Source of the DNA: Mucilaginibacter cryoferens
GTDB taxonomy: Bacteria; Bacteroidota; Bacteroidia; Sphingobacteriales; Sphingobacteriaceae
NCBI RefSeq assembly: GCF_014205845.1
Contig: NZ_JACHCR010000021.1
Coordinates: 62,001-126,000, forward strand
Direction of reading: 5' to 3'
Length of the DNA: 64,000 nucleotides
Position numbers and translations under genes: made by a program. The notes under the pieces were generated by a model. The model saw only the letters and a program-made list of their open reading frames with translations, searched no databases and was not told where the DNA came from. Below are positions 9,535 to 44,977 of the stretch, one piece after another (the first letter of the stretch is position 1; each line of letters begins with the position of its first letter).

Positions 9535-11091
9535 CTATTTTTTAGTATGGTTTTCGAGCACTATTAACGGCGTATGAGTATCCCATTGCGGCCTAAAACC
9601 CCGTTGAAACTTAAAGCCATCGGCGTAATTACCTAAAACAATATCGGGTTTGCCGTCATTGTTAATATCGCCTACATCCATACACATCCAGCGGCCGTAG
9701 CTGCTTACCGGTATAGCATGTGGCTTAAAATCAAATGGCTTGCTTTGTTCAAAGTAAATAAACTCCTCGGCCGGGTTATTTTGCATATCGGCAAAAAAGG
9801 CTATCGTAGCTATATCCAGGTCGCCATCGCCATCAAAATCGGCGGCTATCGCTTTGGTACATCCGTTTATTGGATAAAACCATTTTTGTTTAAAATTCCA
9901 ATCTCCGGTATTCTTAAAAATATACACCCCGTGGTAAGGTTTTAATATCCGCGAATCGTGAAAATTATAACCACAGGTATATACCAGGTCTGGATTGCCA
10001 TCGTGATCCATATCGGCTAACTGAAAACTGGTTGAACTGTTTGTTGGCGGAAAACTGATCAGCTTCCTGCTTGTAAAACCACCCTGCTGGTTATTTAAAA
10101 ATAGCCAAAGTCCCTCATCTCCCGTACCGGTTAGCACCATTACATCTGGCCAGCCATCCTTATTAAAATCGCCGGTTACAGCTTGTACAGCACCTGGTTT
10201 ATTTAATATGGTTGACTGCTCATACGTATGATCTTTATTTTGCTTCAGCAAATAAACGCCACCCTTACCTTTCCCCTGCCCTAATACTACCAGGTCTTTA
10301 AGGCCATCTTTGTTAAAATCAGCGGTTACGGTTTGTACAGGCCTTGGCAAATCTGATGCTATAAAGGTTTGTGAAGCGTTAATATTTTTATCGTCCAGAT
10401 CAACCTTTACTAATTTGCCATTAGGGAAATCTACGGCCTCAATACGGCCAACTGCCGATAAAAAAGCAATATTATGTCCATCAACACCTTTATCAAAATT
10501 AATATCAAACCCTGCTGATGGCAACCTGGCTAATGAATCTGGTTTTAAATTTGCATCCCAGCTATTCAATTTTTCGTCTACCGCATCGGCGCTGTACAAT
10601 TTATGTGTGTAGGGGCTTACTGCTACTGTAGTGGTAAAAACAGTATAGTTTACGGGCGCAGCCTTTTTTAGCGTAAAACCAGCCCAATCATTTATTAAAG
10701 GTGTTGGCTTTTTAGCAGGCAACAGCGTATCGGGTGCCATTTTTTTATAATAATCAACAATGGTGAGCCACTCGGCTATGGTGGCGCCGGCGGTATCAAG
10801 CGGTTGCCTTTTAAAGTACGACCCTCCGTAGGCTGATATTTTCAACATCGGAGCCATATCTATCAGCACATGGTTAACCCAAACGCCTTTTGTTAACGAT
10901 TCTATTGGCGCAAGCACGTGGCAACGTGTACATTTTAGCTGTACCAGGGCTGGCCCATCAACAGCCAGATTACCCGTTAATTTATAGGATTGAACCTTGG
11001 GTTTACACCCGTACATCAGCGTAACAACCGATAAGGCTGCGGTAAATAAAACTAAATAACCGGTAACCAGATAACTTTTTCTAAAACTCAT
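9535..11091 (-). CDS. Lipoprotein with c-type haem motif and FG-GAP/VCBS repeats (copy 2)
   Basis: A 518-residue paralogue of the neighbouring 519-residue gene, 80 bp upstream of it. The SPII cysteine is C29 (TLMYGC) and the haem motif is CTRCH at residues 54-58. Propeller blades carry ADFNKDGLKD, GDFNKDGWPD, ADMDHDGNPD, ADFDGDGDLD and GDINNDGKPD. Conserved segments such as LKPYHGVYIF and YGRWM/ISMDV occur in both copies, which points to an old tandem duplication rather than two independent acquisitions. It follows the haloperoxidase-type gene by 16 bp, so the two are almost surely co-transcribed. Function is unknown; a redox or scaffold role at the cell surface is an inference from the haem motif and context. 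Confidence 0.8.
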   Translation of the reverse strand: MSFRKSYLVTGYLVLFTAALSVVTLMYGCKPKVQSYKLTGNLAVDGPALVQLKCTRCHVLAPIESLTKGVWVNHVLIDMAPMLKISAYGGSYFKRQPLDTAGATIAEWLTIVDYYKKMAPDTLLPAKKPTPLINDWAGFTLKKAAPVNYTVFTTTVAVSPYTHKLYSADAVDEKLNSWDANLKPDSLARLPSAGFDINFDKGVDGHNIAFLSAVGRIEAVDFPNGKLVKVDLDDKNINASQTFIASDLPRPVQTVTADFNKDGLKDLVVLGQGKGKGGVYLLKQNKDHTYEQSTILNKPGAVQAVTGDFNKDGWPDVMVLTGTGDEGLWLFLNNQQGGFTSRKLISFPPTNSSTSFQLADMDHDGNPDLVYTCGYNFHDSRILKPYHGVYIFKNTGDWNFKQKWFYPINGCTKAIAADFDGDGDLDIATIAFFADMQNNPAEEFIYFEQSKPFDFKPHAIPVSSYGRWMCMDVGDINNDGKPDIVLGNYADGFKFQRGFRPQWDTHTPLIVLENHTKK

Positions 11092-11107
11092 AAAACCGTA
11101 TAGCCCC

Positions 11108-12427
11108 TTATTTTTTAAGTTTCAATTTACTCCAGATGTATTCGCCAACCTGGCGGCCTTGTACCGCGCCCTGGTTTACGCTGTTAAGGTAATGAATACC
11201 GCCATAAAACCTACTTATAGAGGTTTCATCAGATGCCTTTAAAAACGAATCGAAATGACGCTGCATGCCTATATACCTTAAATCGCTGGTATCCTGGTAA
11301 GCAAAATTATCGCCAAATAAATGGGTAAGCACTACTGCTGATGCCGCGCTTATATCACTATGCCCGCTTGGGTACTCCGGAAACGGCGGAGTTTGCAACA
11401 TAGGTAACCAATCGTGATCAATTTTATCATTAATAACCGTTACCGGCCTTATGTAATTAGTTTCGTATTTAACCTGCCAGCCACAAATAAACGCATCAAA
11501 CAGCGCAATTGAAGTAAGGGCATAAGCTTGTGCCGTTTTTACCACATCGGCATTGGTTTTTTTACAGGCTATAGCTGTAATGCCAATCCAGTGCCCCCCC
11601 GGAGTTATTTTTTTGTTGGCAAACATCATGTGCCCGTTGTGCTGTATCACAAAAGGGTTATCATCCCAAAAGCGGGCAATGGTTACTTGCTCTTTGGTTA
11701 TATTTTTGCTCAATTGGTAAACAGCCAGGTTTTGTTTAAAGTACTCGCTGTTTTTATCTTCGCTAAAAGCTGGCGGCGGTGGCAATTTAAACTGGGTAGA
11801 GGTATCAACTGCGAATGTGTGCATGGTACCCCAACAAAACTCAACCCCATCCAGGTAGTCGGGTGCAGTAGGATGCCATTGGCCCGGACCATCGTTACCC
11901 AAAAAACGAGGTTTACCACGGGTTTGCGGATAATTATCAACTAAAGAGCGTTTTAACATATATTTACCTACCTGTATACCAAAGGCAATGGAGCGCGCAT
12001 AGGTAGAATCGTCAAGATTATCCTTGTACATAGCGTACACTTTATCCTCATATTTCTGCAGCGTATCTACAGAAAAAGTAATTTTATGGGCCACTGTAAA
12101 AAATGCTTTGGTTGCAGCAAGCGTAAAATTATATTTCAGATCTTTTTTAGGTTTGGGCGGTTTGCCAAAGCCTTTTAACTGTGCAGCAATGGAGTTATAG
12201 CTGGTATCTGTATACCTCGCTGCCTCATAGGCAGCAAGCGTTGTATAGCCGTAAATACGGGCAGCTACAGGAGGCGTAAAAACATCGTAAATAATTACTT
12301 GTGTTAGCTGGTCTACATTGTTATGCAGTACATCGGCATCTTTTATTAAAGCAGTTTTCTTTTTAGGCGAGCAGCCATAGATAAAAAACAGGTAAACAAG
12401 AGCTAAAAATATTTTAAAAAATCTCAT
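11108..12427 (-). CDS. Vanadium-dependent haloperoxidase / PAP2-superfamily lipoprotein
   Basis: I place the start at ATG 12427 (MRFFKIF), giving 439 residues and a lipoprotein signal ending at IYGC. The longer reading from 12469 would add 14 residues, hide the signal and overlap the upstream gene. All three vanadate/phosphate-binding motifs of the family are present: K-x6-RP (KYETNYIRP), PSGH (EYPSGHSD) and R-x5-H (RFYGGIH) near the C-terminus. The protein could be a haloperoxidase, or an acid phosphatase of the same fold, as the motifs alone do not separate them. It lies 10 bp after the large FG-GAP/ASPIC gene and 16 bp before a haem-c lipoprotein, so it is probably part of one transcript. 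Confidence 0.82.
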   Translation of the reverse strand: MRFFKIFLALVYLFFIYGCSPKKKTALIKDADVLHNNVDQLTQVIIYDVFTPPVAARIYGYTTLAAYEAARYTDTSYNSIAAQLKGFGKPPKPKKDLKYNFTLAATKAFFTVAHKITFSVDTLQKYEDKVYAMYKDNLDDSTYARSIAFGIQVGKYMLKRSLVDNYPQTRGKPRFLGNDGPGQWHPTAPDYLDGVEFCWGTMHTFAVDTSTQFKLPPPPAFSEDKNSEYFKQNLAVYQLSKNITKEQVTIARFWDDNPFVIQHNGHMMFANKKITPGGHWIGITAIACKKTNADVVKTAQAYALTSIALFDAFICGWQVKYETNYIRPVTVINDKIDHDWLPMLQTPPFPEYPSGHSDISAASAVVLTHLFGDNFAYQDTSDLRYIGMQRHFDSFLKASDETSISRFYGGIHYLNSVNQGAVQGRQVGEYIWSKLKLKK

Positions 12428-41455: not shown

Positions 41456-41626
41456 GACGACTACCGCCAAGAGGGGAAATGTAAAACTCTCTGCCGCCGT
41501 TCTATCTGCGGTGTTAAGATAGAGTAGTTATACTCTGAAAATGATTAAATTGTAGTTTACTAGTGATTAACTATAGAAAAGAGTTGTTGTAGATAGCATT
41601 AGGGGGTATAAAATGATAACTTTGGG

Positions 41627-42556
41627 TTGGTTTTACTGTTTTTAATATTATTCCTTAATACCTTGAGCCTAAGATTTATTCAAATAACAATACCTAAATA
41701 TGTCCTTTGTAACGTTAATGGTTACGATTTTTTTGCAAAGTTAGCTGGAGAAACAATTGCTATAACAAATTTAGAGGTTCATTTGTATTTTGCTGAATGT
41801 CTTTGGTTCGATGGAACTTTGTGCGCCGTTTTAGGAAATATTTTGGATGGCTTACGGATAAGAAATAATAAAATTAGATTATTTGATTTACCTGCTCATA
41901 TTTTGACTACATTTAGGAGAAATAAGTTTTTGGAGGCATTTACCGATCTTAGTTCAAATGATCAGGCACCCTTGACTATTCCTTATCAAAAATTTAAATT
42001 ACAAGATGAGGATAGGGCAAAGGACTTTATAAAAAAGCAACTTTTTGATAAGCCAGATATGCCCAAAATGAGCGATGAGGCGAAAAAATCTGTTTTGGTA
42101 AGTATATTTGAAGTTTGTGTTAATGCTATTACTCATGGGAAATGTGATTCCGTGTATACTTGCGGTCAAATTTCTCCCAATCGTATTCCGCCTGAGGTGG
42201 CAATTGCTTTTGTTGACTTAGGAAGGACGATAAAAGCTAATGTTAATGAGTATTTGAAATCGCAAAGAAGTGGAAATAGTACTATTTTATGGGCATTAGA
42301 TGAAGGAAATACTACTAAAACGGGTGCTGAGCCAGGAGGTTTGGGTTTGAAATTGCTACAAAACCTAATTAATTTAAATAATGGTAGCTTACAAATAGTT
42401 TCAGCAGATGGCTTTATAGAATTAAAAAACGGAATTTTTAAAGAACATCAAATGATTGATTATTTTCCTGGCACGATTGTTACAATCAAATTACGGTTGG
42501 GTGATTCCAATTTTTATGTCTTATCAAATGAAATTGATACTGATAACATTTTTTAA
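41627..42556 (+). CDS. GHKL-type ATPase with an N-terminal STAS-like region
   Basis: About 300 residues. Residues 150-290 show a GHKL ATP-binding fold: N-box E162-x3-N166-x3-H170 (FEVCVNAITHGK), G1-like DLG at 197-199 and G2-like GGLGLKLL at 237-244. Residues about 18-110 contain VHLYFAECLWFDGTLCAVLG, which resembles the beta-strand and helix of STAS-like proteins, including the next gene product. No phospho-acceptor His or membrane segment is seen. The start is uncertain: no ATG is in frame, and the listed TTG at 41627 and another TTG at 41663 are both possible; the conserved part begins near residue 18. It is first in a tight A+T-rich three-gene unit. Confidence 0.72.
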   Translation: MVLLFLILFLNTLSLRFIQITIPKYVLCNVNGYDFFAKLAGETIAITNLEVHLYFAECLWFDGTLCAVLGNILDGLRIRNNKIRLFDLPAHILTTFRRNKFLEAFTDLSSNDQAPLTIPYQKFKLQDEDRAKDFIKKQLFDKPDMPKMSDEAKKSVLVSIFEVCVNAITHGKCDSVYTCGQISPNRIPPEVAIAFVDLGRTIKANVNEYLKSQRSGNSTILWALDEGNTTKTGAEPGGLGLKLLQNLINLNNGSLQIVSADGFIELKNGIFKEHQMIDYFPGTIVTIKLRLGDSNFYVLSNEIDTDNIF

Positions 42557-42574
42557 TTAATTTTGCTTCGTTAT

Positions 42575-42916
42575 ATGGAAGTTACTATAAAAGATTATTT
42601 AGAAGGAAATACAGCATTAGCGCCTTCGAAAGGTTATCCTATTCACGATGCTATTAAACAAGCTTTAGATAAAAAAGAATTGGTTTATCTGGATTTTAAT
42701 GGCATGGAGTTAATGACAACAGCATTTTTAAATGCTGTAATAGGAAAATTGTATTCGGAATTTACTTCCGAATATTTAAATACCTATTTGAAAATAAAGT
42801 ATATTTCGCAATCAGATGTAGTCTTGCTAAAGAAAGTAATAGATACAGCAAAGCTATATTTTGCAAACCCAGAGGCATTTGAAAATCACATGAATCAAAA
42901 ATTCAATAATGAATAA
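42575..42916 (+). CDS. STAS-like domain protein (DUF4325 type)
   Basis: I start it at ATG 42575 (MEVTIKDYLE), 113 residues; the TTG at 42563 would add four residues. The family core is VYLDFNGMELMTTAFLNAVIG at about residues 37-57, where DUF4325 and anti-anti-sigma proteins carry the loop that a partner kinase phosphorylates; here Thr48 and Thr49 stand at that site. The protein is small, soluble and all in one domain. It follows the ATPase by 18 bp and overlaps the PIN gene by 8 bp (ATGAATAA), so it is translationally coupled to it. Such DUF4325-GHKL pairs are known but poorly characterised. Confidence 0.75.
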   Translation: MEVTIKDYLEGNTALAPSKGYPIHDAIKQALDKKELVYLDFNGMELMTTAFLNAVIGKLYSEFTSEYLNTYLKIKYISQSDVVLLKKVIDTAKLYFANPEAFENHMNQKFNNE

Positions 42917-43457
42917 TTATTCTTTGTTGAAGGACTTTGAACCTAAGGCAAGTCATATATATTTGATAGATACGAATATTCTGATGTATTTATTTTCACC
43001 AATTGCGTCGTATGGTGAAAAAAAACAAGAGCAAATAAGTAGGTTTTTACAACAAAGTAAAAATATTGAGGCTGGCCTAATAGTTACTTCCCATATTTTG
43101 GGCGAATTTTTTCATGTAAATTTGAATATTTATTTTGAAAATTGGTGCAAATCTCAGAAAGATTCGATTCGTTTTGATTTGAAAAAAAATTATCGACCAA
43201 CAAGCGATTTTAGCGATAGTGTTAATGCCATAAATTCAAGTATTTCGTCCATTCTTAAGTTAACCGAGAGATTTAATGATAATTTTAATAATACTTCAAT
43301 GATTAATATTGCGAATCATTGTCATTTCTCGGAATTTACTGATAGCTATTTATTAGAATTGAGCAACCAAAATGGTTGGATAATTGTTTCTAATGATAAC
43401 GATCTACTTAATCACCCCAATAGAAGAAATTTGCTAATTACACCTAATTTTAAATAA
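42909..43457 (+). CDS. PIN-domain protein, probable ribonuclease
   Basis: A 182-residue PIN-fold protein. Acidic residues at the expected places are D21 (LIDTNIL), E66 (HILGEFF), D145 (FTDSYLLEL) and D163/D165 (SNDNDLL), enough for a metal-dependent nuclease site. The insert between residues 75 and 130 is longer than in VapC toxins. The start overlaps the STAS-like gene end by 8 bp. No antitoxin of VapB type is adjacent, so its activity is more likely restrained or directed by the ATPase/STAS pair. RNase action is inferred, not shown. Confidence 0.72.
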   Translation: MNNYSLLKDFEPKASHIYLIDTNILMYLFSPIASYGEKKQEQISRFLQQSKNIEAGLIVTSHILGEFFHVNLNIYFENWCKSQKDSIRFDLKKNYRPTSDFSDSVNAINSSISSILKLTERFNDNFNNTSMINIANHCHFSEFTDSYLLELSNQNGWIIVSNDNDLLNHPNRRNLLITPNFK

Positions 43458-43657: not shown

Positions 43658-43879
43658 TCAGGATGCCAACCCAGTCACCAGCCTACATTCTTTACACAAG
43701 GCTTGCCCTAAGACAGGGCTTACTTTATAACATTCATGGCCTAATGCAGTTCCTTGAGTGGGGTTTTCTTTGAGAGATGTTAATAATAAAGCAAAGTCGG
43801 CTTTAAGCGATGGGAATTTTTTTGCCAACCGCTTTAACTCTTTTTCAAACTTAGGAATAAACTTTACCTTATAACTCAT
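43658..43879 (-). pseudogene. RelE/ParE-family toxin, C-terminally truncated
   Basis: The first 50 or so residues (MSYKVKFIPKFEKELKRLAKKFPSLKADF region, ENPTQGTALGHECYK) fit RelE/ParE toxins well. After HECYKV the sequence departs from the family: the expected I-R-L-A...G-K-S-G-G-x-R-I-I-T beta strands are missing and VSPVLGQALCKECRLVTGLAS follows in part, encoded by a short palindromic repeat (AAGGCTTGCCCTAAGACAGGGCTTA, arms around 43710-43730). The remaining 73 residues lack the catalytic C-terminal strands, so it is probably inactive. The antitoxin gene overlaps it by 11 bp. Confidence 0.7.
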
Positions 43880-44075
43880 TTAGCAAGTCGTCGGCGTTAC
43901 GAGCTTTCATTTTACCTGCCAAAACCAGGTTCAATTCATCAACGGCTTCCTTAACATCTTCCAACACTTTGGCTTTATATGGTGTAAGAGGTTTAGTTTT
44001 CACATAAGGCAAATCGTTAAGTAGCGCCATCAAGGCTGCTGCCTTACTTTCTTTAACTTCCACTACAAACTTCAT
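43869..44075 (-). CDS. Antitoxin of the RelE/ParE-type pair
   Basis: A 68-residue protein (MKFVVEVKESKAAALMALLNDL) with an N-terminal strand, helices and an acidic tail (ARNADDLLNEL), the usual antitoxin layout in Bacteroidota. It precedes and overlaps the toxin gene by 11 bp. It stays intact although the toxin is shortened, so it may still serve against other toxins or be drifting. The DNA-binding fold is not clear from sequence. Confidence 0.65.
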   Translation of the reverse strand: MKFVVEVKESKAAALMALLNDLPYVKTKPLTPYKAKVLEDVKEAVDELNLVLAGKMKARNADDLLNEL

Positions 44076-44377: not shown

Positions 44378-44977
44378 ATGAAAAACACAGACCTAACCAA
44401 AAAAATTAAAGAATTACGCACTAAAATGGGCTTAAGCCAGGGCGAACTTGCCGAATTATCGCAGCTAAATTTACGCACGGTTCAACGGATTGAAAGCGGC
44501 GACACAGAGCCGCGTGGCGATAGTTTGAAACGCCTGGCCAACGCGCTTAACGTAATGCCCAACGACCTTATTGAATGGACCGAAAAAGAAGACAAAGGCA
44601 TATTGATATTTTTAAACCTTTCGGCTTTAGCATTTATCGCCTTTCCGCTTATGGGGGGTATAGTGCCGCTAACCATTTATATGCTAAAAAAAGACCAGGT
44701 AAAAAACATTAACGAAACCGGCAAAAAGCTACTCAACTTTCAGATAACATGGTGCCTGCTGATATTTTTAGGTTACATTTTATTGCTTTGCACAATGTTT
44801 TTACACTTCAACTTCCCTTTTCATTTCAACTTTGGCGGTTTGGCAACTACCGATGTATTGATATGTGTTCCTTTACTTTATTATGGATTGAACATTGTCA
44901 CCATACTTTTTAACGCTTACAGAAGTTACGCAGGCAAAGCAGTGATATACAAACCCGCAATCAGGTTTTTAAGGTAA
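44378..44977 (+). CDS. XRE-family regulator with C-terminal membrane domain (DUF4870-like)
   Basis: A 199-residue protein. Residues about 8-65 are a classic helix-turn-helix (MGLSQGELAELSQLNLRTVQRIESG). Residues about 80-190 contain four hydrophobic segments resembling DUF4870 membrane domains. The DNA-binding part would be held at the cytoplasmic face of the inner membrane. Single gene; target unknown. The domain pair is common in Flavobacteriia and Sphingobacteriia. Confidence 0.8.
   Translation: MKNTDLTKKIKELRTKMGLSQGELAELSQLNLRTVQRIESGDTEPRGDSLKRLANALNVMPNDLIEWTEKEDKGILIFLNLSALAFIAFPLMGGIVPLTIYMLKKDQVKNINETGKKLLNFQITWCLLIFLGYILLLCTMFLHFNFPFHFNFGGLATTDVLICVPLLYYGLNIVTILFNAYRSYAGKAVIYKPAIRFLR

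Follow-up and report, generated by a model that had tools for sequence, protein, structure and literature searches.

A probable VapKSC operon behind the mla genes of Mucilaginibacter cryoferens, and related kinase-STAS pairs without a PIN gene

Genes and conserved residues of the locus

The window (the whole stretch of Mucilaginibacter cryoferens DNA that was analysed, 64,000 nucleotides) contained three adjacent open genes on the + strand downstream of the mla genes (MlaE, ABC ATPase, MlaD; Table 1), as had been predicted. With ATG 42575 as start of the middle gene, the 18-base gap of the original prediction was recovered (42557-42574); the 8-base overlap corresponded to 42909-42916. The start of the block had been placed at 41612, which proved to be out of the kinase frame; ATG 41613 opened a 10-codon frame instead. 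Read by eye, the sequence near the start of the kinase ORF had no in-frame ATG. Judged by homologue length, TTG 41663 appeared likelier as the kinase start than TTG 41627, because the resulting protein of 297 aa is as long as two homologues from the genus (L004, L005). The block was A+T-rich as originally described, with a G+C content of 29-34% vs 43-50% for windows taken within the mla genes. One copy of the trio DNA was present in the genome, and the sole further match was 35 bases long.

Table 1. Coordinates of the genes, open reading frames and residues of the locus, numbered from the first base of the window.
Feature	Position	Strand	Description
vapK-like gene	41663..42556	+	STAS-like N-terminal part and GHKL kinase domain, 297 aa from TTG 41663
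Longest kinase ORF	41627-42556	+	Opens at TTG 41627
Kinase Trp48 codon	41804..41806	+	Trp/Phe column; candidate equivalent of VapK F54 / CapK W68
vapS-like gene	42575..42916	+	DUF4325 STAS-like predicted antitoxin, 113 aa from ATG 42575
Middle-gene ORF at full extent	42563-42916	+	
VapS Thr49 codon	42719..42721	+	Aligned with phosphosite Ser48 of Escherichia VapS
VapS C-terminal tail, residues 94-113	42854..42913	+	Aligned with VapC-blocking segment 94-116 of Escherichia VapS
vapC-like gene	42909..43457	+	PIN-domain predicted nuclease, 182 aa, acids D21, E66, D145, D163, D165

The family calls GHKL, DUF4325 STAS-like and PIN were backed by Pfam, alignments and models. The middle gene matched DUF4325 (Pfam E = 3.9e-13), the third gene matched PIN just under the cut-off (0.00074; 20.6 bits, cut-off 23.6), and the kinase matched HATPase_c weakly (0.0087, below the curated cut-off). 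The PIN model had a pLDDT of 91.6, and its best Foldseek matches were PIN proteins, many of them VapC. The kinase model (297 residues; pLDDT 90.7) had its first strand at residue 5, and its fold matches were GHKL ATPases, albeit weak ones. Positions 12-94 of the kinase profile matched the STAS protein TM1442, an anti-sigma antagonist (4.1e-4), and the kinase consisted of a STAS-like part, which comes first, and a GHKL domain, without the N-terminal HTH of CapK. Searches of the three proteins against PADLOC and NCBIfam (E up to 1) returned nothing useful save a PADLOC match of the kinase at 0.016. The PHROGs match of the kinase was phrog_3364, of unknown function; as a marker for counting the system this family was rejected, as it matched 300/395 genomes and also picked up other proteins.

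The N-box, G1 and G2 residues of the kinase were invariant in 16 rows (alignment A1). Across 99 rows, with column letters counted where present, the motif residues were kept at Glu (93/94), Asn (93/93), His (93/93) and Gly (93/93), and the G1-box Asp in 86/93. The five PIN acids quoted in the original prediction were correct and conserved, and the catalytic residues were not lost in homologues (D21 in 68/68; E66 in 70/70; D145, D163 and D165 in 69/69 each). As for the phosphosites proposed at Thr48/Thr49 of the STAS protein, Thr49 stood, its column being Ser/Thr in 78/79 unique rows, and Thr48 did not, its column often being Ile (29/79). Of the 90 rows with letters in the column of kinase Trp48, 40 had Trp and 37 had Phe (77/90 Trp/Phe).

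These domain features bear on the reading that the locus acts on transcription, as CapK-CapS does: the STAS protein would repress an operon nearby, and the PIN gene would be a passenger. The available text of the VapKSC report (Chambers et al., EMBO J 2026; PMC13373217) relates CapK and CapS to kinase-STAS pairs of this kind. However, CapS has a winged helix, and the STAS protein here is 113 aa long with DUF4325 as its only Pfam match above cut-off; moreover, the kinase starts directly with its STAS-like part, and the PIN gene is retained in the operon with its catalytic acids intact. Neither the winged helix of CapS nor the HTH of CapK was found in the STAS protein or the kinase by Pfam, alignment or model. 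A CapK-CapS-like switch was considered very improbable.

Linkage, distribution and neighbourhood

Conserved co-occurrence of the three genes was found in both directions of search. When named genomes were scanned with the kinase as key, using alignment A3 of seven trio kinases, 68 loci emerged, in 67 of which the profile found the kinase; 61/67 were assessable, with at least 1,100 bases after the kinase, and some loci were near-copies of one another. STAS and PIN accompanied the kinase in 54/61 assessable loci, a count that is valid for the trio-kinase clade and not for GHKL-STAS pairs generally, because the scan motif was learned from trio kinases. STAS only was present in 3/61 (L060, L061, L107), and neither STAS nor PIN in 4/61 (L097, L099, L101, L102), the kinase of L102 being in three pieces. 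Among the remaining 7 loci, L041 and L068 showed all three genes (the PIN gene of L041 running into the contig end), L087 had kinase and STAS and then the contig end, L049, L095 and L096 ended too soon, and L106 had STAS and PIN with a kinase match below threshold. The lone kinase relatives in Ancylomarina (L097, L099, L101; about 9953-10807) had no STAS or PIN match beside them, and the G1-box Asp was replaced by Asn in L097 and L099.

With the PIN protein as key, the search of 395 phylum genomes gave 16 matches in 15 genomes; two of the matches were 52-codon pieces at contig ends, and 14/14 complete loci carried both partners. An initial sample of 60 genomes, which included that of the window, held 4 with a PIN match, one of them weak with internal stops. 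A kinase match was present in 3/299 genomes of the family of G398. The order kinase-STAS-PIN was the same in L004, L005, L007, L008 and L009. A genome of the genus (G003) carried the trio, probably the one on a contig of an uncultured Mucilaginibacter (CAITEP010000012.1). Sources of the trio included Bacteroidota, Chlorobiota, Pseudomonadota, Nitrospirota, Planctomycetota, Elusimicrobiota, Bacillota and one Thermoplasmata archaeon; the named sources were mostly metagenome bins, so that single host assignments are soft. On this comparison of sequences, a chance origin of the three-gene arrangement is excluded, because the three genes and their order are conserved across many phyla.

Conservation of the PIN gene also bears on whether it is an unrelated neighbour of an RsbW/RsbV-type partner switch acting on a sigma factor. 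Such a switch would fit the STAS partner, which resembles anti-sigma antagonists, the weak HATPase_c_2 match of the kinase, and its N-box (ExxxNAxxHG), which resembles the motif of anti-sigma kinases. The PIN gene is, however, co-conserved across phyla, and the homologous solved complex 9Z7O consists of STAS with PIN; a sigma-factor switch was accordingly rated as extremely improbable.

The trio was found on plasmid P5 of Deinococcus gobiensis, in a Streptococcus prophage adjoining the integrase, on a phage scaffold from faeces and on a single IMG/VR contig (L109). When viral contigs were scanned with single proteins, no relative turned up. In the record of Streptococcus phage Javan172, the 176-aa PIN gene beside the integrase (L007:3977-4507) lacked a PIN annotation, and a 40-codon hypothetical CDS was placed inside that stretch.

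The neighbour scan covered 23 of the 47 non-trio ORFs and two small ORFs. No specific defence gene was recognised among these 25 ORFs. PADLOC matches of neighbours at 1e-5 came from the mla ABC ATPase (mad3, mad8, HEC-02A), an ArsR-type regulator (Csa3, PDC-M05A) and HTH proteins, and no defence island was therefore seen at the locus among the ORFs scanned. A pair of small ORFs at 43658-44075 (- strand) could be what is left of a toxin-antitoxin module: one, of 73 aa, matched ParE below threshold (E 0.19) and lay behind the other, of 68 aa, which had no matches. An HTH_3 and DUF4870 protein was encoded at 44378-44977 (+), with matches of 1e-30 or better in 6/41 genus genomes, own included.

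Window DNA was common to G020, the closest relative by MlaD (91%), up to about 41443, and to G022 up to about 41433, in both cases just after mlaD in the stretches compared. As sharing with both relatives ends there, the region behind mlaD is variable, as far as these alignments indicate. The empty-site comparison with G020 and G022 located no downstream boundary of an insert in the stretches compared. At the trio's place behind the mla genes, G020 had another, by eye different-looking, PIN-type ORF (L166:15496-15936, - strand).

Correspondence with VapKSC

The original prediction knew of no established description of this trio. One exists: under the name VapKSC (operon vapKSC) it came out in June 2026, with 289 reported instances, and the VapS-VapC structure was solved as PDB 9Z7O (Chambers et al., EMBO J 2026; PMC13373217, available text). 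The locus is a further example of a known system and not a new system; it places the 2026 system in Mucilaginibacter, and the searches above show it across many phyla. The PIN systems DS-3 (one-protein) and DS-5 (two-protein) of DefensePredictor were rejected as counterparts, having another build than the trio in the available description.

Homology to the Escherichia proteins was detectable for VapS and VapC. A VapS profile including L024, whose STAS protein looked closest by eye to Escherichia VapS, recovered that protein (9z7o_A) at 5.2e-30, and the own-clade profile A8, without Escherichia-like (L024-like) rows, recovered it at 1.5e-18. The own-clade profile A6, likewise without Escherichia-like rows, recovered Escherichia VapC (9z7o_C) at 9.8e-12. 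Escherichia VapC D28 aligned with D21 here, and Escherichia VapS Ser48 with Thr49 (the numbering of the 9Z7O VapS chain being shifted by 18, by our count). The kinase had 24% identity to the L024 kinase, and its Trp48 is a likely but unproven match to F54 of Escherichia VapK, a putative ssDNA site. None of the complete E. coli genomes matched the operon DNA, which says little at such divergence. 9Z7O was absent from the Foldseek matches of the PIN model; the library ends in April 2026, so its absence is uninformative.

According to the available text of PMC13373217, Escherichia VapS neutralises VapC, and neutralisation requires the VapS C-terminus (residues 94-116 were deleted in that work). 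The phosphomimic VapS S48E does not neutralise VapC, and it loses co-purification, in an experiment done once. Escherichia vapKSC gave ~2-log protection against phage Bas42, which depended on VapC D28, VapS S48 and VapK F54. In that text, ssDNA is the proposed trigger of VapK. An immune gene was located within 10 kb in 103/289 of the published vapKSC loci and is no required feature (PMC13373217). Both functional proposals of the original prediction, a GHKL/STAS partner switch controlling the PIN nuclease and a role in stress or phage response, agree with what is reported for this homologous Escherichia operon, the latter by virtue of the Bas42 protection.

Phage protection also weighs on the reading of the trio as a plain addiction module, that is, a toxin-antitoxin module for plasmid or island maintenance in which the kinase would only tune the antitoxin and phage defence would be incidental. 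The settings on plasmid P5 and beside a prophage integrase, the scattered occurrence (PIN match in few of the phylum genomes, kinase match in few of the family of G398) and the lack of a specific defence gene among the 25 neighbours would all suit maintenance. Against it, the conserved kinase and phosphosite amount to a signal input that is absent from simple addiction modules, and the Bas42 protection of the Escherichia operon requires residues of all three proteins (PMC13373217, available text). Plain addiction was regarded as unlikely.

A VapKSC operon was the best explanation of the locus, and a highly probable one. In its favour at the sequence level are the content and order of the genes, their linkage elsewhere, the homology of VapS and VapC to the solved Escherichia complex, the kinase motifs, the phosphosite, the tail and the PIN acids. 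Counting against it are the missing ATG start of the kinase, its low identity to the L024 kinase and the lack of a specific defence gene among the 25 ORFs scanned. By analogy with the Escherichia operon, it would be expected to have toxin and antitoxin activity, phosphorylation-driven release and phage protection. In the resting cell, VapS would be bound to the VapC dimer, with the VapS C-terminal tail over the nuclease active site. Under the published model, single-stranded DNA that arises when DNA is damaged or phage replicates would activate VapK, and active VapK would phosphorylate VapS at Thr49. Phosphorylated VapS would let go of VapC, and the freed VapC would cleave RNA and halt growth; the activating signal and the RNA target are among the least certain parts of this scheme.

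Kinase-STAS pairs without the toxin, and comparison with known systems

In the STAS protein here, the counterpart of the segment deleted in the published work (VapS 94-116) follows the AK motif, as a tail of 20 residues. Tail length was counted in 79 unique STAS rows, 68 with a PIN match and 11 without; two of the latter were set aside (L087, at a contig end, tail 20; L037, with a PIN-like ORF present, tail 22). The 68 PIN-positive rows had tails of 9-32 residues (median 21), of which only three were of 15 or fewer (L051, 15; L056, 14; L092, 9). The nine PIN-less rows had tails of 0-10 residues (L016, L017, L020, L021, L027, L039, L060, L061, L107). Distant GHKL relatives among the phylum loci had STAS without a PIN match (L016, L017, L020, L021, L027, L034, L035, L039); L034 and L035 were pairs with very weak STAS matches (2e-4), below the threshold of the tail count. 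L029 and L037 were divergent, yet with a PIN-like gene.

Three of the PIN-less pairs with a short STAS tail were from Flavobacteriaceae (L060, L061 and L107, about 9974-11223: Dokdonia, Mesoflavibacter and Tenacibaculum). The kinase tree was built from 81 of 111 trimmed kinase rows, leaving out fragments, broken kinases and near-duplicates, and was midpoint-rooted. The three pairs came together in a single clade (100/99), itself nested in a group that also holds the G398 trio (100/99). As they are one clade nested in that group, the tree argues for one derived toxin loss and not three, with the kinase motifs and the phosphosite kept. The six other PIN-less rows fell outside the smallest group containing every trio, most of them on long branches, and their order is unsure. 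A VapC profile that matched in 15/395 genomes, G398 included, found nothing in 6 genomes, the three Flavobacteriaceae among them. dN/dS was 0.08-0.13 for the Flavobacteriaceae kinases and 0.10-0.17 for VapS in the two computable pairs of three, with synonymous sites near saturation.

The loss of the VapS tail together with the toxin agrees with the published VapKSC model: pairs that have no toxin also have no toxin-blocking tail on the antitoxin, which provides an evolutionary check of a key mechanistic claim. It is quite possible, if somewhat short of probable, that VapK-VapS is a portable signalling pair with output beyond VapC and that the toxin-free pairs are working switches.

SpoIIAB-SpoIIAA and RsbW-RsbV each consist of a kinase and a STAS substrate, with partner exchange via phosphorylation; in the trio, the released partner would be a nuclease and not a sigma factor. 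VapBC likewise has a PIN nuclease toxin, in line with the many VapC matches of the PIN model, but the predicted antitoxin here is a kinase-controlled STAS protein and not VapB. No VapB antitoxin was found next to the PIN gene, the upstream partner being DUF4325 by Pfam. CapK-CapS, regulators of immune operons, are alike in that a GHKL kinase phosphorylates a conserved residue of its STAS partner; they differ in the extra N-terminal HTH of CapK, the winged-helix DNA-binding domain of CapS, and an output that is transcription and not a nuclease (PMC13373217, available text). From the described VapKSC, the present locus differs in being a divergent Sphingobacteriaceae branch, probably with TTG as kinase start, with no specific defence gene recognised nearby, and in being known from sequence alone. 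It shares with VapKSC the same three genes in the same order, a STAS-GHKL kinase, a STAS antitoxin with a Ser/Thr phosphosite and a C-terminal tail, and a PIN toxin with the same acids, with detectable homology of VapS and VapC.
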